A stretch of DNA of 24,367 nt from a virus, in IMG/VR virus record IMGVR_UViG_3300027139_000023, positions 1-24,367 of that record, one strand, 5' to 3'. The position numbers and the translations under genes were made by a program. Shown here in pieces: positions 10,243 to 24,025 of this stretch (the first letter of the stretch is position 1; each line of letters opens with the position of its first letter). The notes under the pieces were generated by a model. That model searched no databases and was not told the origin of the DNA. It saw nothing but the letters and a program-made list of their open reading frames with translations.

Positions 10243-13200
10243 ATGGCACTAGATACAGACTTTAACGTAAGCCCTTTTTACGATGACTATAATGAAACAA
10301 AGAACTTCCATAGAGTTCTTTTCAGGCCGGCCGTCCCTATTCAAGCTAGAGAACTTACTCAGCTACAAACTATCCTTCAAAACCAAGTTGAAAGATTTGG
10401 TGACAATATTTACATTGAAGGTACAATTATCAAAGGATGTAGTTTTACGTTTGATAATAATTACCAATACATAAAATTACAAGATCTTCAAGTTGATGGA
10501 CAATCAACTCTTGTTTCTAATTATGCTAATTCAATAGTTAAAAGCTCTTCTTCTAATCTACAAGCTATAGTTATTAATCAAGTACAGGGACTTCAATCTC
10601 AAAATCCTGACTTATCAACTCTGTTTATTAAATATACAAACTCTGGTACTGCTGGCGAAAAGCAATTCTCAGTAAATGAGACATTAACATCATTTACACC
10701 TACATATTCCATTCAAGATATTACAGTTACATCTATCGGTGCTGGATATAGTAATAGTGATGTGGTTGTATTTGCTGGCGGTGGCGGCACAGGAGCATCT
10801 GCTAATATTGTTACATATACATCTAATGGATCAATACGTGATGTTATTATTACTGGACAGGGATCAGGATATACAACTGCACCTACTCTATCTTTCTTGG
10901 CAGCTAACGGAGCAGCAAGTAGTGGAGCTGGCGGTAGTTTAGAAGCTTTTAATTACATTGCTCGTATTAGAGTTGCAAATTCTTCATTTACCAATGCTGT
11001 TGGTGTTGGATATGCCCTCACAGTAAGCGATGGTATAATTTACCAAAAGGGACATTTTGTAAGGGTTGCTGAGCAGACTACTATTGTTTCAAAATATACA
11101 AACCAACCAAATAATGTTTCTGTTGGATTCACAACAGTAGAGTCTATTGTTAATAATAGCATCGACTCGACTATTCTGGATAATGCTCAGGGATATAGTA
11201 ATTATACAGCTCCTGGTGCATATAGATTAAAATTACAACCCCAACTAATATCTATTTCTACTACAGCGGCAGCTTCTAATTCGGAATTTCTATCTCTTAT
11301 GGATTTTGAAAATGGAAGAGTAACAAGAAGAAGAACAAATACACAATTTAATTCTGTTGGTGTTGAACTAGCCAGACGTACTGCTGAAGAAAGCGGTAAC
11401 TATGTTCTAAATCCTTTTAAACTTTATACAGAAGAGAAGTCTGGCAATACTACCTACTTAAATCTTGCTGTAGCAGCTGGTTCTGGGTATGTGAGCGGGT
11501 ACAAAGTTGAAGTTGGCGATACAATAAGACTTCCTATTAAGAAAGGATCTACAACGGTCGTAGATTCAAGTCAGACTATTACAACTAACTACGGAAATTA
11601 TGTTTTAGTTAGTGAAGTATTGGGAGTTTTTGATTTTACAACAGGCCCAACAGTAAGTTTAAAAGATGCTGTTAGTACTGATGTAACAGATAATTTTGGT
11701 GGAGCTCCAAGCACTTCAGCATCTACAATTGGAACAGCAAGAGTTCGTTCTATTGTATATGATTCAGGCACAGTTGGCACTTCTTCATGTAGATATAGAT
11801 TATATTTGTTTGATGTGAGAATGCAGTCTGGAAAAACATTCAGTAACGTGAGGGCTATCCAGTTATCAACTACGGGTATTGCCGATGTTGTTTTAGAAGG
11901 AACACCAGCAGCTGCTGTTCTTAAAGATGCAAGCTATGATTACTTAGTTTTCCCGTCTGGGGCAGAATCTGTAAAAGCTTTTACTAATGAGCAATTCATA
12001 TACAGAGCAGTTGGTACAACTACAATTGCAACTACCGGAATTGGTACTGTTACTCTTTCGGGATCTGAGAGCTTTCCTTATAGTAATAATAGTACATTAA
12101 ATGATACTCAGGAACGAGATTTCATTGTTATACCTTCCGCTAACGTATATTCAACAACAAATTTATCTGGAACTGTTACGTCATCTGGTAATACTATAAC
12201 TGGAACAAGTACATCATTCTTAACACAGCTAGCTGTAGGGGATTATGTCAAATTCTCTGGTAACACAACCTACTTCAGAGTTACGGAGCTAGTGTCTGCT
12301 ACTTCTATGAAGGTCAATGGAACTGGTCCAGCAATATCTGCCAATACCTTATCATATGGATATGTTAAAAATGTACCTGTTAGACTTGATAGAACAGGGG
12401 CAAGTGTATCAATTGATATTACAGGAAAGATTGCATCAATAAACCTTGGAAATACAGTATTTTCTTCAACTGCTGCAAGTGTAGTCCATAATGCTAAAGT
12501 TACAAATGCAGCTCAAAAAACCAAGACAGTATATAGAAATGCGAATGCAGTTTTTGTCAAACTATCAACTACTTCTTTAACAACCAGTAATACAGGACCG
12601 TGGTGTTTGGGTATTCCTGACGCCTTTAAAATAGAAGCTGTTTATGTTGGATCGGCAAATACTTATGTTGCAACAGGAACTAATAGAGCATCATCTTTTG
12701 AATTGATATCTGGTCAAACAGATAATTTATATGGTCTTTCTTACATAAGAAAGAAGCCAGGAAGCACACTATCTCTTACTTCATCAAGTAGCTTACTTGT
12801 AAAAGTTAGTTGTTTTACACATGGATCTGGTTACTACCTATCAACTGAATCATATCCTGTAAATGATGCTGGTGCTGAAACAGCTACGGCAACAATAAAA
12901 ACTCAAGACATCCCATACTTTCAATCTCCAAAAACTGGTAAGTACTTTAATCTAAGAGATGTTATTGATTTTAGACCGATCGTAGCCAACACAGCAAATG
13001 TATCTAATGCATCAACTGTAGGTGGTGCATCTATCGACCCTATAACAACAGAAACTCTTACTGGTACGTTCTATTTCCCGACACCAGATAAAGACTTTCA
13101 AGCAGATATCGAACACTATCTTAGAAGAATAGATAGGATTGTTATTGATCCTTCTTCAACAGTGAAGATTGTTGAGGGAATTCCTGCACTCAATCCAAAC

Positions 13201-13569
13201 CCACCAAAACAGCCAGATACTACAATGACTCTTGGTGTTGTGCATATTCCTCCCTATCCATCACTATCACCACAGCAAGCATCTGAGGCTCAAAGATCCG
13301 AATATAGCACGCTTGTTCAACACGACCAGGTTCGTGGGTACACTATGAAGGATATCAAGCAAATCGAAGATAGAATTAATAGATTAGAATATTATTCATT
13401 GCTTAATACTCTTGAAAAAGATACAAAGGATTTAGTTATTCCCAGTGAATCAAATTCAAGTATTTCTAGATTCAAGAATGGATTTTTTGTTGATTCATTT
13501 AATAATTATGATATCAAACTTAAGCGATGCGTATACAATAGCTATCGATACTACAAATGGAGTTGCTAG
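10243..13569 (+). CDS. DUF4815-type virion structural protein, 5' part of a frame-split gene
   Basis: The N-terminus (SPFYDDY, then HRVLFRPAVPIQARELTQLQ) is the signature of large DUF4815-type virion proteins of marine T4-like phages; their exact role is not settled, though they lie in the baseplate/tail-fibre gene region. Recognisable later parts are DVIDFRPIV, the YPSLSPQQASEAQRSEYST region and a coiled segment (KDIKQIEDRINRLEYYSLLN) near residues 1045-1065. Inserts include Gly-rich GSGYT-type repeats at residues about 160-225 and one copy of the roughly 50-residue module at 643-692. The reading frame carries family-like sequence as far as FKNGFFVDSFNNYDI (to about 13515), then switches to unlikely residues and a TAG at 13567. 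The continuation is in the next frame (see the following CDS). The first gene half is thus broken by a one-base shift; a sequencing or assembly indel is the simplest cause. Confidence 0.82.
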   Translation: MALDTDFNVSPFYDDYNETKNFHRVLFRPAVPIQARELTQLQTILQNQVERFGDNIYIEGTIIKGCSFTFDNNYQYIKLQDLQVDGQSTLVSNYANSIVKSSSSNLQAIVINQVQGLQSQNPDLSTLFIKYTNSGTAGEKQFSVNETLTSFTPTYSIQDITVTSIGAGYSNSDVVVFAGGGGTGASANIVTYTSNGSIRDVIITGQGSGYTTAPTLSFLAANGAASSGAGGSLEAFNYIARIRVANSSFTNAVGVGYALTVSDGIIYQKGHFVRVAEQTTIVSKYTNQPNNVSVGFTTVESIVNNSIDSTILDNAQGYSNYTAPGAYRLKLQPQLISISTTAAASNSEFLSLMDFENGRVTRRRTNTQFNSVGVELARRTAEESGNYVLNPFKLYTEEKSGNTTYLNLAVAAGSGYVSGYKVEVGDTIRLPIKKGSTTVVDSSQTITTNYGNYVLVSEVLGVFDFTTGPTVSLKDAVSTDVTDNFGGAPSTSASTIGTARVRSIVYDSGTVGTSSCRYRLYLFDVRMQSGKTFSNVRAIQLSTTGIADVVLEGTPAAAVLKDASYDYLVFPSGAESVKAFTNEQFIYRAVGTTTIATTGIGTVTLSGSESFPYSNNSTLNDTQERDFIVIPSANVYSTTNLSGTVTSSGNTITGTSTSFLTQLAVGDYVKFSGNTTYFRVTELVSATSMKVNGTGPAISANTLSYGYVKNVPVRLDRTGASVSIDITGKIASINLGNTVFSSTAASVVHNAKVTNAAQKTKTVYRNANAVFVKLSTTSLTTSNTGPWCLGIPDAFKIEAVYVGSANTYVATGTNRASSFELISGQTDNLYGLSYIRKKPGSTLSLTSSSSLLVKVSCFTHGSGYYLSTESYPVNDAGAETATATIKTQDIPYFQSPKTGKYFNLRDVIDFRPIVANTANVSNASTVGGASIDPITTETLTGTFYFPTPDKDFQADIEHYLRRIDRIVIDPSSTVKIVEGIPALNPNPPKQPDTTMTLGVVHIPPYPSLSPQQASEAQRSEYSTLVQHDQVRGYTMKDIKQIEDRINRLEYYSLLNTLEKDTKDLVIPSESNSSISRFKNGFFVDSFNNYDIKLKRCVYNSYRYYKWSC
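12169..12318 (+). repeat. Shared beta module, copy 4 (in first half of large virion gene)
   Basis: GTVTSSGNTITGTSTSF, then GDYVKFSGNTTYFRV and a closing SMKVN strand. It follows the same pattern as the gp7 copies but lies in a different gene. Confidence 0.8.
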
Positions 13570-16500
13570 ACCACAAATTAACAAGTATGTGATCGACTTA
13601 CAGCCAAACACAGCCTCATCTTCTAATGTTGCTTTTGTAGGTGATTATGCTCTTTTAGAATATGATCAAGCCATTCTGATCAGTCAAACAATAGCTAATA
13701 GTTACAGAAACCCTGTTCAATTACAATATTCATATAACGGGGTTCTTAATGTATTTCCCAAGTATGACAATTATTATGATGTAACACAAGGAAGTCAAAA
13801 TGTTACTATTGATTTAGCAACCCCTCTTAATGGGTTAGTTGATACAATCAACAACAACGTTCAATTCAAAAAAGACGGTGCAGTTGTTACATCATCAGTT
13901 GGTACGGGTAACTGGTCTACTGTTAGTAGTACAAACCTTGGTGGAGGAGCTACTACCCAGTTGCAACAGAGAGAGACAATTGAAACTGTAGCGACAACCG
14001 TGACAACACTGAAACCTTCAGATTCGAAACTATCTGTTCAGCCTGTTGGTTCATTTGTAACAAACTTCGGATTAAATCCATATATTCGAGAACAAAATAT
14101 ATCTTTTGTCGTGACCGGATTAAGACCCCTAGCTGAACACAAGGTATTTTTTGACAAAGTAGATGTATCATCTCAAACAAGACCAGCCATTATAACAAAC
14201 CTGGAGAGTGTTAATTCAAAAGGATTAAAGTTTGATACAAATGCAACTATTACAGGTGCTCTTGGAGCTACTCTCAAAACAGATGACGCAGGAACACTAG
14301 TTGGCGAGATCCACATTAATAGTAATCAGTTTTTTGTTGGATCGCGTGATATTGTTGTAGCTGATGTTCAAAATTATGATGATATAGATCAATCTATTTC
14401 AATTGGTAAGAATGTTTTCAATGCTTTTAATTTTTATAAAGATATAACTGATCTAACTCTTACTACCAAAACTCCAGGTCAGCTTACTCCTTCTTCTAAT
14501 ACTTCTATATCTACCAGAGCTGGAACAGAGCAAAGAAATATTACTGTTCCTGCTCCACAGCCACGGGGTTGTTGTTTTATTAGAGGAACTACCATTACGC
14601 TGGCTGATGGATCAACAAAGTCGATTGAAGATGTTGAGATAGGCGATAAGTTGATTGGTAAAGATAACTCTATTAATATTGTTATTGATTTTATAAGGCC
14701 TTTACTAGGTGATAGAACTCTAGTCTCATTGAACGGTAGTGTTCCATTCATGACAAATGATCATCCTGTGTACATGAAAGATGGTACATGGAAATCATTT
14801 AATCCAGAGGCAACAAAGAAGAAGTATGAAGCGTTGTCTACATGGGATATTGGTAAGTTACAAGTAGGAGATGTAATAGAAACTGTTGATCGTGTCGGAT
14901 TGGAAATTGTGGATATATCAGAACACATCAATGATCCTGACCTACAGGTTTACAACTTTACATTGGATGGTAATAATACCTACATTGCTAACGGTCTTGT
15001 GGTCCATAATAAAGGCGCTGGCGCAGGTGGGACCGATCCTCTTGCTCAGACCTTCAGAATCGATAATAGTGACGGTACACATGGTGTTTATCTAACCAAG
15101 CTTGATTTATATTTTAAATCAAAGGACTCTACTTTAGGTGCAACAGTTCAGATAAGGGAGACTGATAATGGATATCCTGCAACAGCAATACTTGGATCTA
15201 GATATTTAAAGTCCTCTTCTATCAATACTAGTGACACTGCTAGTAGTGTAACAGCTGTTACCTTTGACACTCCAATATATCTAAGCTCAGGTAAAGACTA
15301 TTGTTTTGTAATTATTCCTGATCAAAACAATCCCAATTATCTATTATGGACTGCGGAAGTAGGTATGCCTGATATTGCAGACTCATCGTTAGTGTATGTA
15401 AGTAATTGGGGTGCAGGAGTAATGTTCCTATCATCTAATGATACAGCTTGGACCCCAGTACAGAGGGAAGATGTTAAATTTACAATATACTGTGCAAAAT
15501 TTACAAAAAATACCGGAACATTGGTCCTTGAAAATAAACCGTATGAGTTTTTATCAGTATCTAATACGTACGGATCGTTCCAGGGTGGGGAAGAGATTGC
15601 ACAAAAATCAAACACATATATCAATGCTACGTTCACTTGTAATACCACGAGTCAGGTAGTAAACACAAGCACATCTTTACTAGGAACATTCTCAGTGGGC
15701 GATTATGGTTTGTTTGTATATGGTGACAGTCTGACATCTAATAAAACAGGTACTGTTACAGTATTAGCTTCAAACACAACTGTAGTCGGTACAACTACAG
15801 TTTTTGAAACTGAATATACTGTTGGTGATTATATAAAAATTGATACCTCAATACGCGAGGTTACTGCAATTGCAAGTAATACGACATTAACTATTGATGC
15901 ACCTTTACTTGGGGCTGTTGCTGCTAATACTCACAAAGGTGCATCAAAGTCTTTCCAAGTTCAAAGAATCAATGCTGCTAACTCTTCAACAATAACTGTT
16001 AAAGATTATCCAAGTAAAGCAATTGATAACTCAACCGTTTTTGTTGGAGTTCAGAAAGTTGTAAGAGCGGTAATGTCGAGTGTTGGTAACGATGAAACCG
16101 TTGTTCTTGAAGAATCAAATGCAGCTAATACCACATTCTTATTTCAAGCAAATAAGTCTATTATTGGAGAAGCCTCTGGTGCAACAAGTACTATATCTAG
16201 CGTTGATGATATAGTAGTTAATTATGCAGAGGCGCATATATTAGATATAACACCTCCTACAACATCTACAAGTTACACTATGACAGTTGATCAGACTGCA
16301 AGTGCTGCCCCTTCAAGTATAGATATTATTGAAGGTGTAACTAATAAAATGGCATACGAGGCCGAGGTTAAATCTAGAAGTAATGAAATTGCTAATAGCA
16401 ATAACAAATCATTAAAGTTCAACGTTTCTATGGCTCGTAATGATACTGCATTGACAAAACTATCTCCTGCTGTAGATTTGTTCCCTGCATCAATTATCTC

Positions 16501-17224
16501 TTTTAATAATATTATTAACAACAGTGCAACAAATGAAACAACAGGATATGGGAATGCTTCTGTTAGATATATTTCTAAAAACGTAGTATTGGCGGAGGGT
16601 CTTGATGCTGAGGATATGAAAGTATTCCTGACAGCATATAAACCACCAACATCTACAATACAAGTATATTCAAAAATTCTAAGCTCTGATGATCCTGATG
16701 TATTTAAAGATAAGGACTGGACCTTAATGAGTGCCTCAAACAACTCAAACCTATTCAGTGATTCTTTGAATGATAAAGATTATATTGAGTTTGAATATAG
16801 CTTCCCTAGAACTCCTCCATCAACCGCTTTGGCTGGTATTATAACATCTGCAACTACTACCACATTAACAGGTTCTGGAAGTGCGTTTAATACAGATTTG
16901 GTAGCTAATGATATCATTAAAATTGTTCAAAGTGATACAGAGACAAGTTATGATATCGGTGTTGTGGATGCTGTTACAAACGCCACTAACTTAACATTGA
17001 AGTCAAATACTTCTTTCAGTGGTGCTTGCTCAATTGAAAAAGTTACGCAGAAAAAAGCTGCATTTAAATATAATAGAGAGTCAAATATTGTTACATATTT
17101 TGATGCAAGTAATGGACGTCACTCAAGTTATAAGGTGTTTGCAATCAAAGTAGTCTTATTATCAAGTACAACTCAGAATCCACCGATAATGAAAGATGTG
17201 AGGGCACTTGCAGTGTCTATTTAA
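13445..17224 (+). CDS. Large virion structural protein, 3' part, with internal Hint domain
   Basis: The frame opens after a TAG at 13433. The first possible start is GTG 13445 and the first ATG is 13508; neither has a convincing ribosome-binding site. Natural-looking sequence begins at SNLSDAYTIAIDTTNG (from 13514), which continues the first half, so this is probably the rest of one protein of about 2,300 residues. Residues about 190-370 hold a beta domain with NPYIREQNISFVVTGLRPLA. Residues 377-522 are a Hint domain (own entry). After it comes TDPLAQTFRIDNSDGTHGVY, a conserved tail-protein segment, followed by a jelly-roll-like region. Two copies of the shared module lie at 769-822 and 1131-1188. 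The C-terminus is beta-rich. Function: outer tail or baseplate structural protein; precise role unknown. A different reading is two real proteins with a coupled internal start. Confidence 0.75.
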   Translation: MNQIQVFLDSRMDFLLIHLIIMISNLSDAYTIAIDTTNGVARPQINKYVIDLQPNTASSSNVAFVGDYALLEYDQAILISQTIANSYRNPVQLQYSYNGVLNVFPKYDNYYDVTQGSQNVTIDLATPLNGLVDTINNNVQFKKDGAVVTSSVGTGNWSTVSSTNLGGGATTQLQQRETIETVATTVTTLKPSDSKLSVQPVGSFVTNFGLNPYIREQNISFVVTGLRPLAEHKVFFDKVDVSSQTRPAIITNLESVNSKGLKFDTNATITGALGATLKTDDAGTLVGEIHINSNQFFVGSRDIVVADVQNYDDIDQSISIGKNVFNAFNFYKDITDLTLTTKTPGQLTPSSNTSISTRAGTEQRNITVPAPQPRGCCFIRGTTITLADGSTKSIEDVEIGDKLIGKDNSINIVIDFIRPLLGDRTLVSLNGSVPFMTNDHPVYMKDGTWKSFNPEATKKKYEALSTWDIGKLQVGDVIETVDRVGLEIVDISEHINDPDLQVYNFTLDGNNTYIANGLVVHNKGAGAGGTDPLAQTFRIDNSDGTHGVYLTKLDLYFKSKDSTLGATVQIRETDNGYPATAILGSRYLKSSSINTSDTASSVTAVTFDTPIYLSSGKDYCFVIIPDQNNPNYLLWTAEVGMPDIADSSLVYVSNWGAGVMFLSSNDTAWTPVQREDVKFTIYCAKFTKNTGTLVLENKPYEFLSVSNTYGSFQGGEEIAQKSNTYINATFTCNTTSQVVNTSTSLLGTFSVGDYGLFVYGDSLTSNKTGTVTVLASNTTVVGTTTVFETEYTVGDYIKIDTSIREVTAIASNTTLTIDAPLLGAVAANTHKGASKSFQVQRINAANSSTITVKDYPSKAIDNSTVFVGVQKVVRAVMSSVGNDETVVLEESNAANTTFLFQANKSIIGEASGATSTISSVDDIVVNYAEAHILDITPPTTSTSYTMTVDQTASAAPSSIDIIEGVTNKMAYEAEVKSRSNEIANSNNKSLKFNVSMARNDTALTKLSPAVDLFPASIISFNNIINNSATNETTGYGNASVRYISKNVVLAEGLDAEDMKVFLTAYKPPTSTIQVYSKILSSDDPDVFKDKDWTLMSASNNSNLFSDSLNDKDYIEFEYSFPRTPPSTALAGIITSATTTTLTGSGSAFNTDLVANDIIKIVQSDTETSYDIGVVDAVTNATNLTLKSNTSFSGACSIEKVTQKKAAFKYNRESNIVTYFDASNGRHSSYKVFAIKVVLLSSTTQNPPIMKDVRALAVSI
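13507..13526 (+). other. Probable frame break joining the two halves of the large virion gene
   Basis: Family-like sequence ends in frame 1 at FVDSFNNYDI and resumes one base further on in frame 2 at SNLSDAYTIAID. Skipping one A of the AAA at 13516-13518 yields D-I-N-L-S-D-A-Y without a gap. The crossover can only lie between the frame-2 stop at 13433 and the frame-1 stop at 13567. There is no stop codon at the junction, no obvious strong slippery heptamer and no clear stimulatory hairpin, which argues against a classic programmed site. Confidence 0.6.
14573..15010 (+). other. Hint (intein-like) domain inside the virion protein
   Basis: This 146-residue block has the intein/Hint landmarks in order. 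Block A is CFIRGTTITLADGSTKSIED then VEIGDKL, with Cys at position 1 (a second Cys lies just before it). Block B is FMTNDHPVYM, holding the T-x-x-H motif. The C-terminal pair of blocks is VYNFTLDGNNTYIANG then LVVHN. The following residue is Lys, not the Cys/Ser/Thr needed as the second nucleophile in standard splicing, so ordinary intein excision is unlikely. Self-cleavage at the Cys or Asn side, as described for bacterial intein-like domains, is possible. No homing endonuclease fits in this size. The surrounding protein is in frame, and the domain lies just before the conserved DPLAQTF segment. Confidence 0.85.
15749..15910 (+). repeat. Shared beta module, copy 5 (in second half of large virion gene)
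   Basis: GTVTVLASNTTVVGTTTVF, then GDYIKIDTSIREV and SNTTLTIDAP. More diverged than copies 2 and 3. Confidence 0.75.
16835..17008 (+). repeat. Shared beta module, copy 6 (in second half of large virion gene)
   Basis: GIITSATTTTLTGSGSAF, then a ND-I-I-K-I step and NATNLTLKSN. It is the most diverged copy and slightly longer. Confidence 0.65.
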
Positions 17225-19061: not shown

Positions 19062-21977
19062 ATGGCAACAGCAAATAGTAAATTAAAGATTGATTATGGA
19101 TTTGATTCTTTTGGTACTAGTAACGTCACTGGTGACTTTAGAGTTACTGGAAATGTATTTTTCACTGGGACAATCCTCAGCTCTATTACCACGAATGGCG
19201 ACTTGATTCCAGTTACTAACGGACTTCAGTTAGGTAATACTACTAATCGTTGGACTGTACTTGCAAACTCAGGTAATTTCAGTAACACATTAACTGTTGT
19301 AGGTTCAGCCACTCTACAAGATGATCTAACTGTTACAAAAACGATTAATGCCAGCAATAACGTTGTAATTACTGGATATGCAAATGCTATTGTCAGTGTT
19401 AATAGTGCTCTACTATCTGTCGGAACATCATTTATTGCAAATACTACTGGTGCATACCACACTGGTACAATTAATTCTGCATCAGTCACATTAAGTAACT
19501 CAACAGTTACTGGTATTGTGACTGCCAACAATTCTGGTGTTTATCCTTCAAGCAATACTGTTGGTACAGCTCTTGGATCTTCTACACAGCGTTGGGTAGT
19601 TAATGGAAATACTGGTAATTTTAGTGGACAGCTAACTGTATCGGGTAACTCAACACTGACCGGTAATGCTACATTGAGTGGCACTCTTCAAACTATAGCT
19701 GGTAATGTTAACTTCGATAGCGGTACTCTTTTTGTTGATGCAGCAAATAACCGAGTCGGAATCGCTAACACTACTCCTGGTGTTGCACTCGAAGTTACTG
19801 GTGCAGCCAATGTATCTGTTAGTGTTAACTCCGCACTATTGACTGTAGGTACTAGCTTCACTGCAAATACATCTGGAGCATACCCAGGATCAAATACAGT
19901 TGGAGCTGCTCTTGGATCCTCTACTCAGCGATGGATAGTTAATGCAAATACTATAAATGCATCTGGCTTAATTACAGGATCAGCTGGCGCCAATATTACT
20001 GGTCAATCCAATCTTGCTGATGTTACTATATCTGGAAATCTTACAGTATCTGGTACAACAACTTATATTAACACAACTACATTGAATGTTGGTGATAATA
20101 TTGTTACTCTTAATGCAGATCTTGATGCGCTAGTAGCTCCAACAGAAAATGCTGGGTTAGAGGTTAATAGAGGAAGTGCTGCAAACGTCAGCTTCTTATG
20201 GAACGAGTCATCAGACTCATGGACACAAGGTAACACTAATATTACTGGATATGCTAATGCTACTGTTAGCTTGTCAGTTGGTACTTCATTCATAGCTAAT
20301 ACAACTGGTGCTTATCATACCGGTACAATTAACGCTGCAAGTTTTACAACTACCAACTTAAAAGCAAATAATACAGGACTAATCCCATTATCTAACACAG
20401 AAGGAATTGTACTTGGAAGTGCAACAAACAGATTTAATTTAACAGCCAACACTGGTAGTTTCAGTGGAACAGTAACCGGTACAGTTGCTAATATGTCAAC
20501 CAGTGTCAACTCGGCATTGTTGACTGTTGGCACATCGTTTATTGCAAACACAAGCGGCGCTATTGTACCGTCTCATCTAATTGTATCTGGCGGCAATGCA
20601 ACCGGTGAGGGTGGTCAGATTGTTCTTGGATATGGTAATAATCTTGCTTCATCTATTACCGGGCTAGCAAATAACACATTCAGCTTTGATATTGTTGGGG
20701 GCAATACTGCTTCTACTCCTATATTACGTGCTTATTTTCAAAATAATGACGGTACAACAACATACGCGTTCAGTGCTGCAAACACAGGTAGAGTGCATGT
20801 TGGTAGTTCTGCAGAGCAAACAGATTCGACATTTAAAGTAACTGGATCTGCAAATGTAACAACAACGCTGAATGTTATAACATCATTAACTGCAAATGCA
20901 TTTACTGCAAATGCATCTGGTGCATATCATACTGGTACAATTAACGCTGCAAGTTTTACAACCACCAACTTAAAAGCAAATAATACAGGACTAATCCCAT
21001 TATCTAACACAGAAGGAATTGTACTTGGAAGTGCAACAAACAGATTTAATTTAACAGCCAACACTGGTAACTTCTCTGGCTTGATAACTGGCACAGCCGG
21101 CACAACAATAACCGGCCAAGTTAATGCAAGCACTGGGTTTGGTTCAGGAACCATCGGAGCTGCATCGAATGGTTTGTTTGCCAATGCCACTTCAATTTCT
21201 GTTGGTAACACATCAGTCAATGTTGCTATAACACCAACAAGTATAGATTTGGGTACACAGTTTGATGCAAACACATCTGGGGTATATCATACTGGTACCA
21301 TTAATGCAGCTAGTTTTACAACAACTAACTTTACTGCAAATAATACTGGTTCTTATCCGTTATCTAATACAGTTGGTAGTGAACTTGGGGCAGGTACAAA
21401 GAGATGGACGTTGAATGCAAGTAATGTTGCTTTAAATTTCCTATCCGCCAATGCCTCGCAAGGCACAGCTGGCGCCGTGTTGACTTCTGGTGGCACTTCT
21501 ACAAATGCATACTGGGCAGATGCTGGTGTTACTATAACCGATGATGTTGCTACTGCGGCTGTAAGATATGTAACCTTTACAAGCTCATCTAGTGGCCAGT
21601 CTACTGGTTTGAATGTCAGTACAACAAAACTTACGTATAACCCATCTACAGGTGCTTTGACATCAACATCTCATGTCAGCTCATCTGATGAAAGATTAAA
21701 AGATGATATTGTTACAATTCCGAATGCTTTAGATAAAGTAAATAGATTAAGAGGTGTATCGTATACCCATAAGCAAACAAAAGGTAAATACATCGGTGTT
21801 ATTGCGCAAGAAACCGAAGAAGTAATTCCGGAAGTAGTGGTCACAGATAGTGAAGGATGGAAATCTGTTTCATATGGTCACATTGTTGGTCTACTAATTG
21901 AAGCAATAAAAGAACAACAAATTCAGATAGACGCGTTGTCTAGCAAAATAAACAATAGTATAATTGAAGGAAAGTAA
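19062..21977 (+). CDS. Tail fibre-like protein with C-terminal S74 intramolecular chaperone
   Basis: The 971-residue protein is made of fibre repeats. One unit, P-x-SNT-x-G-x-x-LGS-x-T-x-RW followed by ANTGNFSG, occurs about six times. Another, YHTGTINAASFTT, occurs four times. One RVGI-type repeat is at 205-247. A unique stretch near residues 325-400 (TINTTTLNVGDNIVTLNADL) resembles a common phage fibre domain. The C-terminus has the S74 signature SSDERLKDDIV; the catalytic Ser is residue 875 and Lys is 880, followed by GVIAQE, VSYGHIVGLLIEAIKEQQ and a final coiled coil. In this family the domain drives trimerisation of the beta-structured fibre, then cuts itself off just before the Ser, leaving about 97 residues released. 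The gene shares modules with its upstream neighbour and probably encodes the host-binding fibre. Confidence 0.85.
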   Translation: MATANSKLKIDYGFDSFGTSNVTGDFRVTGNVFFTGTILSSITTNGDLIPVTNGLQLGNTTNRWTVLANSGNFSNTLTVVGSATLQDDLTVTKTINASNNVVITGYANAIVSVNSALLSVGTSFIANTTGAYHTGTINSASVTLSNSTVTGIVTANNSGVYPSSNTVGTALGSSTQRWVVNGNTGNFSGQLTVSGNSTLTGNATLSGTLQTIAGNVNFDSGTLFVDAANNRVGIANTTPGVALEVTGAANVSVSVNSALLTVGTSFTANTSGAYPGSNTVGAALGSSTQRWIVNANTINASGLITGSAGANITGQSNLADVTISGNLTVSGTTTYINTTTLNVGDNIVTLNADLDALVAPTENAGLEVNRGSAANVSFLWNESSDSWTQGNTNITGYANATVSLSVGTSFIANTTGAYHTGTINAASFTTTNLKANNTGLIPLSNTEGIVLGSATNRFNLTANTGSFSGTVTGTVANMSTSVNSALLTVGTSFIANTSGAIVPSHLIVSGGNATGEGGQIVLGYGNNLASSITGLANNTFSFDIVGGNTASTPILRAYFQNNDGTTTYAFSAANTGRVHVGSSAEQTDSTFKVTGSANVTTTLNVITSLTANAFTANASGAYHTGTINAASFTTTNLKANNTGLIPLSNTEGIVLGSATNRFNLTANTGNFSGLITGTAGTTITGQVNASTGFGSGTIGAASNGLFANATSISVGNTSVNVAITPTSIDLGTQFDANTSGVYHTGTINAASFTTTNFTANNTGSYPLSNTVGSELGAGTKRWTLNASNVALNFLSANASQGTAGAVLTSGGTSTNAYWADAGVTITDDVATAAVRYVTFTSSSSGQSTGLNVSTTKLTYNPSTGALTSTSHVSSSDERLKDDIVTIPNALDKVNRLRGVSYTHKQTKGKYIGVIAQETEEVIPEVVVTDSEGWKSVSYGHIVGLLIEAIKEQQIQIDALSSKINNSIIEGK
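20322..20457 (+). repeat. Near-identical 136-bp direct repeat, copy 1
   Basis: This stretch encodes the GTINAASFTT to TANTG unit and matches 20934-21069 at 135 of 136 bases by direct alignment. The only difference is act versus acc in one Thr codon. The two copies are 612 bases (204 codons) apart in the same frame. Confidence 0.95.
20934..21069 (+). repeat. Near-identical 136-bp direct repeat, copy 2
   Basis: Second copy of the repeat at 20322-20457. Flanking sequence on both sides diverges sharply, so the identical block is bounded. Confidence 0.95.
21684..21974 (+). other. S74 self-cleaving chaperone domain
   Basis: This is the C-terminal part of the 971-residue fibre protein, from the predicted cleavage Ser (residue 875, SDERLKDDI) to the coiled-coil end (QIQIDALSSKI). 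The Ser-Lys pair of the SDxRLK motif is intact, so the domain should be active. Cleavage itself is inferred from the family. Confidence 0.85.
21966..21971 (+). promoter_or_regulatory. Shine-Dalgarno site of the collar-domain gene
   Basis: GAAGGA lies inside the end of the S74 gene, six bases before the ATG at 21978. It supports this start. Confidence 0.65.
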
Positions 21978-22496: not shown

Positions 22497-22835
22497 ATGA
22501 AGTTTGAACGCGGGGACTTTTGTCCTCTTTTGAAAAAGAAATGTATTGGTTTAGAATGTTCTTGGTTTATCCAAATCAGAGGATCTGATCCAAATACAGG
22601 AAAAGAGATAGATTCCTTTGAGTGTGCAATTGCATGGCTACCAACGTTAATGATTGAAAACAGTCAGCAACAACGACAAACAGGCGCGGCCGTTGAATCA
22701 TTTAGAAATGAAATGGTAAAAGCTAATGAGTCCAATATCAATGTCTTAAAACAAACTGTTGTAAAAGACTATTTGAGGAATACACACGTTGTAGTGGATC
22801 AGTTAATTAATGATGTTGAAGGAAATAGACAATGA
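22497..22835 (+). CDS. Conserved phage protein with four cysteines, function unknown
   Basis: This 112-residue protein carries Cys at 9, 16, 21 and 43 (C-x6-C-x4-C-x21-C) in the segment starting FCPLLKKKCIGLECSWFIQI. Spacing and the compact Cys-rich head suggest a metal or Fe-S site; this is inference. The next part, CAIAWLPTLMIENSQQQRQT followed by GAAVESFRNEM, is a pattern I recognise from unnamed proteins of T4-like and other phages. The C-terminus is helical. No signal peptide is visible. It sits 24 bases after the collar gene and its stop overlaps the next start (ATGA at 22832), so it is coupled to the oxygenase-like gene. No function is claimed. Confidence 0.8.
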   Translation: MKFERGDFCPLLKKKCIGLECSWFIQIRGSDPNTGKEIDSFECAIAWLPTLMIENSQQQRQTGAAVESFRNEMVKANESNINVLKQTVVKDYLRNTHVVVDQLINDVEGNRQ

Positions 22836-23410
22836 AATATCCTGATAATATTAAAGATTATATTGTTGTATTAGAAGATGTGATCCCAATCTCACTGTGT
22901 GATGATATTATAGAAGAATACAAAGATTGCAATTTGTGGAGTAATACTACTGTTGGATATGATTCTGGTTCGACAGTTGTAAATCGAAACATTAGAAGTT
23001 GTCAAGAAATATCTTTATCCCATGAGTCAGTTATTGTCGACAGCTTACTAAGACGAGAACTTGATAACAGGGTATTTGCATGTGTTGGTAATATAATAAA
23101 AAGGTACGCCAATAAATTTCCAGAGTGTAAGATATTTAAAGATGACGGATACCAGCTTCTCAGGTATGAAGTAGGACAAAGATATGTGCAACACACAGAT
23201 CATGTTGGTAATCTTTCCAGAATGGTATCTTGTTCTCTACTATTGAATGATAATTATGAAGGTGGAGAGTGGGCTTTCTTTGATGGTGAGTATATATTGA
23301 AACCCAAAAAAGGATCTGCTATTGTATTTCCATCTACTTTTATATATCCTCATCAAATATTACCAGTAATGTCTGGTACTAGGTATTCAATAGTTTCATG
23401 GTTTAATTGA
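22832..23410 (+). CDS. 2OG-Fe(II) oxygenase, prolyl-4-hydroxylase-like
   Basis: This 192-residue protein shows the double-stranded beta-helix core of 2-oxoglutarate/Fe(II) dioxygenases. The first metal ligands are H121 and D123 (QRYVQHTDH), then MVSCSLLLNDNYEGGEWAFF, the distal ligand H174 (YPHQILPV) and the 2-oxoglutarate-binding R184 (SGTRYSIVSWF). All expected residues are present, so activity is plausible: oxidation of a protein or small-molecule substrate with release of CO2 and succinate. The length is usual for small P4H-like phage enzymes, which are common in cyanophages. The start overlaps the four-cysteine gene stop. The substrate is unknown; closeness to fibre genes allows, but does not show, modification of virion proteins. 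Confidence 0.85.
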   Translation: MKYPDNIKDYIVVLEDVIPISLCDDIIEEYKDCNLWSNTTVGYDSGSTVVNRNIRSCQEISLSHESVIVDSLLRRELDNRVFACVGNIIKRYANKFPECKIFKDDGYQLLRYEVGQRYVQHTDHVGNLSRMVSCSLLLNDNYEGGEWAFFDGEYILKPKKGSAIVFPSTFIYPHQILPVMSGTRYSIVSWFN

Positions 23411-23419
23411 GATATATCT

Positions 23420-24025
23420 ATGAGTTTATTTGATCTTAAAGAAGGCGATATCAAATTCCTTAACCCTAGTTGCTTTATTAGAAGAACAAAAGATGGATTT
23501 GTTAATGAAAACAATGATATATTGAACTTTAACAAAAACGTGTTTACTCCAGTTGTGGTAAAAAACTTCTTCAAAAAAGAAGATCATCAAAGAATTAAAC
23601 ATCACATATATAATGACCTAAATACTTCGATGAGAAGTGTGGATACAGATAATTTTCATCGTACATTTTACCATAATGAGTTTATGATGAGAACTATTCA
23701 TCCACAACTTACAGCAGATGCTTGTAATATCTTTGGTGAAGAAGTAAAGCCTTCTTATAGTTTCTTGAGTATGTATAATGAAAAAGGGATATGTCCATTT
23801 CATACTGATAGGCCTCAATGTAAATATACTATTGATTTTTGTATAGATCAAGATCAAGTTTGGCCAATTAACATACAAGATCAAGATTATATTTTAGAAC
23901 CAAATGATGCTGTTTGTTACTCGGGAACAGATAGCCCACACTACAGAGAGAAAATTAAAGGTAAATTTTGTAACCTTGTATTTTTTCACTTTGTACCAGT
24001 ATCGTACGATATAGATTTAAATTAA
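23420..24025 (+). CDS. Second 2OG-Fe(II) oxygenase-like protein
   Basis: This 201-residue protein is only weakly like its neighbour but holds the same order of motifs: H128 and D130 (CPFHTDRPQCKYTIDFCID), an acidic/hydrophobic strand with LEPNDAVCYSG, and H174 (SPHYREK). The usual 2-oxoglutarate Arg ten residues beyond the distal His is a Lys at 182 in the aligned place (KGKFCNLVFFHF), so cosubstrate binding may differ or activity may be lost. The N-terminal 100 residues (NFFKKEDHQRIKHHIYND) are a helical lead common in this group. It lies nine bases after the first oxygenase and has only a weak ribosome-binding site (GAG near 23409). Relation to the neighbour is probably ancient duplication or separate gain; this is not settled by reading alone. 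Confidence 0.72.
   Translation: MSLFDLKEGDIKFLNPSCFIRRTKDGFVNENNDILNFNKNVFTPVVVKNFFKKEDHQRIKHHIYNDLNTSMRSVDTDNFHRTFYHNEFMMRTIHPQLTADACNIFGEEVKPSYSFLSMYNEKGICPFHTDRPQCKYTIDFCIDQDQVWPINIQDQDYILEPNDAVCYSGTDSPHYREKIKGKFCNLVFFHFVPVSYDIDLN

Follow-up and report, generated by a model that had tools for sequence, protein, structure and literature searches.

Hint domains resembling type-A BILs, with a near-fixed basic +1 residue and tandem arrays, in phage baseplate-type and fibre proteins

To our knowledge, only a small number of bacterial-intein-like (BIL) domains are known, and what most of them do biologically is not settled. Type-A BILs end in His-Asn and carry no nucleophile at the following (+1) position, they are reported to form an N-terminal thioester and to cleave at the Asn, with ligation in some cases by way of the amine that this sets free (PMC4031507), and a C-type BIL has been reported from Bdellovibrio (PMC9185962). 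Here we describe a domain that resembles this kind within a structural protein of a virus, in IMG/VR record IMGVR_UViG_3300027139_000023 (positions 1 to 24,367). The window below refers to this whole stretch of 24,367 nucleotides, and all features of the gene are given on its plus strand.

The domain interrupts what the original prediction had called a large phage virion protein, a description that held and could be narrowed to a DUF4815 baseplate-type protein with a solved homologue (9euf_0). The N-terminal flank, which is the DUF4815 part, spans 10243..14572, and the C-terminal flank (15011..17224) runs from KGAGAGGT into a conserved DPLAQTF domain (from 15035). DUF4815 (Pfam) was matched in the upstream ORF 10243-13569 (E=1.9e-53), the first half of phrog_358 was matched by the same ORF and its last part by the ORF that holds the Hint domain, and both flanks matched the single solved chain 9euf_0 (phmmer 8e-22 and 5e-20), placing homology to a DUF4815 baseplate protein on both sides of the insert. 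Adjacent genes encode wedge and hub proteins of a T4-type baseplate, and the isolate homologues that we checked are mostly from Kyanoviridae (VrlC genes), with SPO1 gp16.2 more distant. In this record a 2-nt difference near 13,510-13,520 splits the baseplate gene, within its N-terminal flank, into two overlapping frames. The sister contig L035, which differs from the window by one mismatch and one 2-nt gap over 16,438 bp, joins ORFs 10243-13569 and 13445-17224 in one open frame of 2327 aa with the Hint domain at residues 1445-1590, and a further sister contig, L036, begins inside the gene, yet is open through the same junction. A programmed frameshift between the two ORFs is ruled out, as two near-identical contigs have one open frame, and the GTG-started 1259-aa ORF 13445-17224 is not the real gene: one small change, peculiar to this record, accounts for the split, and the GTG at 13445 is no real start. 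Further along the window, a 163-bp repeat occurs twice (20295-20457 and 20907-21069, 96% identical) inside an S74-ending fibre gene at 19062-21977, and the fibre genes are followed by a 2OG-Fe(II) oxygenase (PF13640, E 1.7e-17) at 22832-23407 and by a protein without a Pfam match at 23420-24022; an oxygenase-like frame likewise follows the Hint gene in contig L009.

The Hint domain comprises 146 aa, C1 to N146 (14573..15010), it starts with CFIRGTTITLADGS and ends in YIANGLVVHN, after which the chain continues as K-GAGAGGT-DPLAQTF. The block A Cys, the T-x-x-H block B, the VVHN end, the length and the Lys that follows had all been pointed out from the letters alone and were all confirmed, as was the absence of an endonuclease insert from the 146 residues. 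The catalytic Cys1 (codon 14573-14575) is preceded by an extra Cys at -1, giving a Cys-Cys pair at 14570..14575, block B reads TNDH (14753..14764), the block G His-Asn at 15005..15010 is the predicted C-terminal cleavage site, and the +1 Lys occupies 15011..15013. Pfam Hom_end_hint (E=1.5e-9) and NCBIfam intein_Cterm (TIGR01443) were both matched above the respective model's cut-off, and a profile search of PDB sequences returned the solved BIL 2LWY as its top match (E=5e-20). The structure prediction and profile comparison that had been proposed as a check gave the same answer, with AlphaFold2 producing a Hint fold from a 27-row alignment (pLDDT 89.7, pTM 0.83) and BILs as the best matches: Tetrahymena BIL2 headed the Foldseek and VIA-align ranking (Z 19.5, rmsd 2.0-2.3), followed by Clostridium BIL4 (Z 15.9), which was level with the best inteins (gp41-1, Z 15.7), whilst Hedgehog domains scored lower. 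The Hint match is far above chance level. The sequence and fold features of a type-A BIL are all present, namely a Hint fold of ~130-155 aa with Cys1 and a block B TxxH, a C-terminal His-Asn (VVHN, last base 15010) and no obligatory Cys, Ser or Thr at +1. Among PDB sequences the Hint profile also picked up ataxin-1 through its AXH domain, at an E of 1.4e-5 that equals those of some true inteins, and Pfam AXH matched 17/27 of the Hint domains; AXH and Hint domains may have a common origin, judging from these profile matches.

Comparison of homologues with and without the insert, also suggested at the outset, located the insertion precisely. In Melnitz, HTVC008M, S-SSM5, S-SRM01 and SPO1 the same protein runs uninterrupted into DPLAQ[ST]F, and among the 80 nearest homologues on viral contigs the Hint domain stands directly upstream of the C-terminal flank in 11 and is absent from 69. 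Even close relatives differ in its presence, for example the Hint-free L112 reads PRLPPPPPP-NRDPLAQTF across the site. Since the Hint-free relatives run straight through the site, the alignments show that the domain was inserted cleanly, and in some members only, into a variable linker just upstream of DPLAQTF. The usual, if not strictly defining, site of an intein is a conserved enzyme active-site motif; here it is a linker of a structural protein.

Searches of viral contigs, in which one protein, two alignments and a DNA pattern neutral at +1 served as queries, recovered 63 distinct complete phage Hint domains. Baseplate-type proteins were found to carry them in tandem, in arrays of two (L037), three (L062), four (L038 and L049) or about seven (L043), where most neighbouring domains meet as HN-K-CF, a single residue apart, and the unit repeats every 163 aa. 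Other Hint domains reside in glycine-rich adhesin-like or fibre proteins. S74 domains self-cleave, and in L047 the HN-K of the second Hint (949-952 aa) lies directly before an S74 chaperone domain and close to the usual cleavage place, the S74 match, which is slightly below Pfam's cut-off, beginning one residue after the +1 Lys. The chain stops right after HNK in three contigs (L009, L020 and L024). In four others (L041 at 2180-2400 aa, L043 at 1618-1838 aa, L057 and L067) the last array member, at the protein end, lacks HN; these members keep Cys1 and a TxxH-like motif and end in a TVNGYGT..GDGG-like sequence, and by their motifs they could cleave at the N-side only. An AlphaFold2 model of a tandem pair folded both domains, with low confidence at the junction (pTM 0.48), and therefore does not bear on whether the two could act at once. 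Nucleotide divergence between array copies is about 18-42%, and arrays recur on many independent contigs, so assembly artefacts are unlikely in general, although broken or collapsed copies were seen in L005/L042, L006/L044 and L023. In a quick tree the phage domains were largely separate from bacterial ones, with few resolved deep forks, and the 162-aa array type formed one well-supported group. No record among 50,697 cultured-phage genomes matched as this Hint family; hits there came mainly from enzyme inteins and from remote Hint proteins, for instance a BIL-like protein encoded by a Ruminococcus phage. A viral structure library already annotates Hint-domain proteins of uncultured phages as such, and searches of an open-access literature library for tandem or virion Hint domains gave inteins in enzymes or nothing relevant, and no paper describing such arrays.

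The residue after His-Asn is nearly fixed. Of the 63 distinct phage domains, 54 have Lys and 6 have Arg here, which makes 60/63 basic, and none has Cys, Ser or Thr (0/63); with later loci added the residue is basic in 69/72. At non-tandem ends it is basic in 34/36, and plain composition is ruled out as the cause, K+R amounting to just 3.9% at +2..+20. The Lys codons divide into 28 AAG and 26 AAA, so it is the residue that is conserved and not the DNA. In the bacterial (Bdellovibrionales) relatives +1 is basic in 4/14 distinct units, and a Fisher test of phage against bacterial domains, using a hand-counted 4/15, gave p about 5e-8, a value to be taken as a guide only because the rows are related. 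Cys1 is present in 62/63 and the block B His in 63/63, as is the His-Asn, a count inflated in part by the requirement for full-length profile matches, and C1, the block B His, H145 and N146 are among the columns that do not vary across 27 diverse members. Comparisons of array copies with each other, and of orthologues, gave dN/dS of 0.06-0.27 at dS about 1 or more. With dN/dS this low and the catalytic residues nearly invariant, the domains are, on this comparative evidence, evidently maintained under purifying selection and not decaying. Recent duplication as the source of conservation within arrays is ruled out by dS of about 0.8 to 2.8 and mixed +1 Lys codons. The extra Cys before the catalytic one, which had been flagged as unusual, is real and recurs in 17/39 non-tandem domains, nine of them with two Cys. 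The Cys(-1)-Cys1 pair could act as a redox lock, by analogy with a DnaE intein that has a redox trap in its N-extein (title of 3NZM).

We consider it probable that the domain is a type-A BIL autoprocessing domain lodged in the flexible linker before the DPLAQTF domain of a DUF4815 baseplate protein, and its nearest relatives by fold and profile, which are BILs, support this. Alongside the observed fold, motifs, catalytic conservation, insertion site, basic +1, arrays and purifying selection, we infer all of the chemistry of the phage domains as follows. Cys1 and the block B His would convert the N-terminal junction to a thioester, and cyclisation of Asn146, assisted by the penultimate His, would break the Asn-Lys bond; the usual branched ester could not form because +1 is not Cys, Ser or Thr. 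The N-flank would then be freed by hydrolysis, leaving two chains, or be passed to an amine, for which the alpha-amine exposed on the +1 Lys or Arg is the simplest candidate; this second course would amount to excision with ligation. Most likely the Hint domain would be removed or released from the precursor during assembly, whether by ligation or by plain cleavage. Against the type-A BIL reading, plain cleavage by every domain of an array, where up to seven in one chain look active, would break a structural protein into pieces, and the last members of some arrays have no HN. The forms that stop at HNK would lose one residue only, therefore simple C-extein release cannot be the whole story.

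The observations of the original prediction thus stood in both sequence and fold, and its interpretation stood in part: a Hint domain without a +1 nucleophile, inside a virion protein, is borne out by fold, motifs and homologues, whilst the further proposal that the protein is cut into two mature chains is one of several outcomes to be weighed. Under that proposal the Hint domain cleaves only, and the baseplate protein persists as separate, still associated N- and C-terminal chains. Cleavage products do predominate in type-A BILs (PMC4031507) and the Hint lies right at the point where a folded, conserved domain begins, but Hint-free homologues, one of them solved, hold both parts in an uninterrupted single chain, which means that the family can do without two chains, and neither the arrays nor the C-terminal HNK-stop forms fit; we regard this as a possibility of the second order. 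Conjugation, in which the thioester would move the N-flank to a Lys side chain (at +1 or on a neighbouring subunit) and create isopeptide cross-links in the virion, as BIL2 does with ubiquitin-like domains, is in our view unlikely. Its appeal lies in the best fold match, BIL2 (Z 19.5 against 15.9 for the next), being a maker of Lys isopeptide bonds (PMC8616854) and in the position-specific Lys at +1 in 54/63; however, a shared fold is no proof of a shared function, the +1 residue of BIL2 is Met and its acceptor Lys lies elsewhere, and the Arg at +1 in 6/63 domains is a poor nucleophile. The latter weakens the Lys epsilon-amine as sole nucleophile, and given the BIL2 Met and the Arg found here, attack by the side chain of the +1 Lys should be read as a lead and not a conclusion.

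Two further explanations deny the domain an active role, and we hold both to be improbable. It might be a selfish or decaying mini-intein, once mobile, that has shed its endonuclease and its +1 nucleophile and is now carried along passively, as the missing endonuclease and the patchy presence in 11/80 nearest homologues would allow, but a retained function is indicated by the age of the arrays, the low dN/dS, the conservation of the basic +1 and the near-invariance of the catalytic residues, and the host site is a variable linker, not an enzyme active site. Or the Hint fold might serve as a spacer or decoration with no chemistry, which would suit arrays that look like the domain repeats of extracellular adhesins and last members without HN, yet conservation peaks exactly at Cys1, the block B His, the HN and +1. 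More speculatively, and with a chance that we would put as low as that of conjugation, the family could be a new mechanistic class of Hint domain in which the basic +1 takes part as acceptor amine or electrostatic catalyst, and arrays, acting in series, join baseplate and fibre proteins by ligation or cross-linking, or else produce a fibre tip that bears an activated Hint, with an HNK chain end that is natural or follows S74 chaperone cleavage.

Working like a type-A BIL remains the most likely mode on the combined alignments and models, and the novel part would be the phage family itself, with its arrays and its fixed basic +1. If the basic +1 supports a ligation route that inteins do not use, this would explain a maturation or cross-linking step of the virion and would provide a new protein-ligation tool. 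The one-residue-spaced arrays and near-fixed Lys or Arg at +1 in virion proteins make a clear, cheap test possible. This suggests that the phage Hint arrays may represent a hitherto unexplored type of protein self-processing in virus particles.

Of the described systems, Clostridium thermocellum BIL4 (PDB 2LWY) shares the short Hint fold, Cys1, TxxH, HN end and lack of both endonuclease and +1 nucleophile, whereas the phage family departs from BIL4 and other type-A BILs in its near-always basic +1, its one-residue-spaced arrays and its baseplate or fibre hosts. BIL2 of the Tetrahymena BUBL1 locus (PDB 6TMM, 6Y75) has the closest fold, likewise lies between independent domains and likewise has a non-nucleophile at +1, but its flanks are ubiquitin-like, its +1 is Met and its acceptor Lys is not at +1, such that the likeness is one of fold. 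Canonical mini-inteins (gp41-1, DnaB and RecA) and phage helicase and terminase inteins share the fold and catalytic motifs, with a Vibrio phage helicase intein at about 28% identity; they differ in occupying conserved enzyme sites and in having Cys, Ser or Thr at +1 (HN-C in Vibrio K453), the hallmark of class 1 inteins, where the window has Lys (15011-15013). PT-HINT (pretoxin) domains share the Hint fold and VHN end, and their model matches 9/27 family members, but what follows the HN here is the DUF4815 baseplate part (9euf_0), with no toxin domain in the window; Hedgehog-type Hint domains are terminal, lack the HN and precede a sterol-recognition region, whereas the domain here has the HN and a 737-aa baseplate part downstream. 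The nearest cellular relatives found are Bdellovibrionales Hint proteins (38% identity), a scan of genome contigs having yielded one bacterial relative only. Some of these end in HNK or HNR, for example L085 and L076, where the Hint ends HNK before a Gly-rich CC tail or HNR at the stop. They differ from the phage family in a varied +1 (K, R, V, I, T, C or Y) and in being single domains of bacterial proteins, some with apparent signal peptides.
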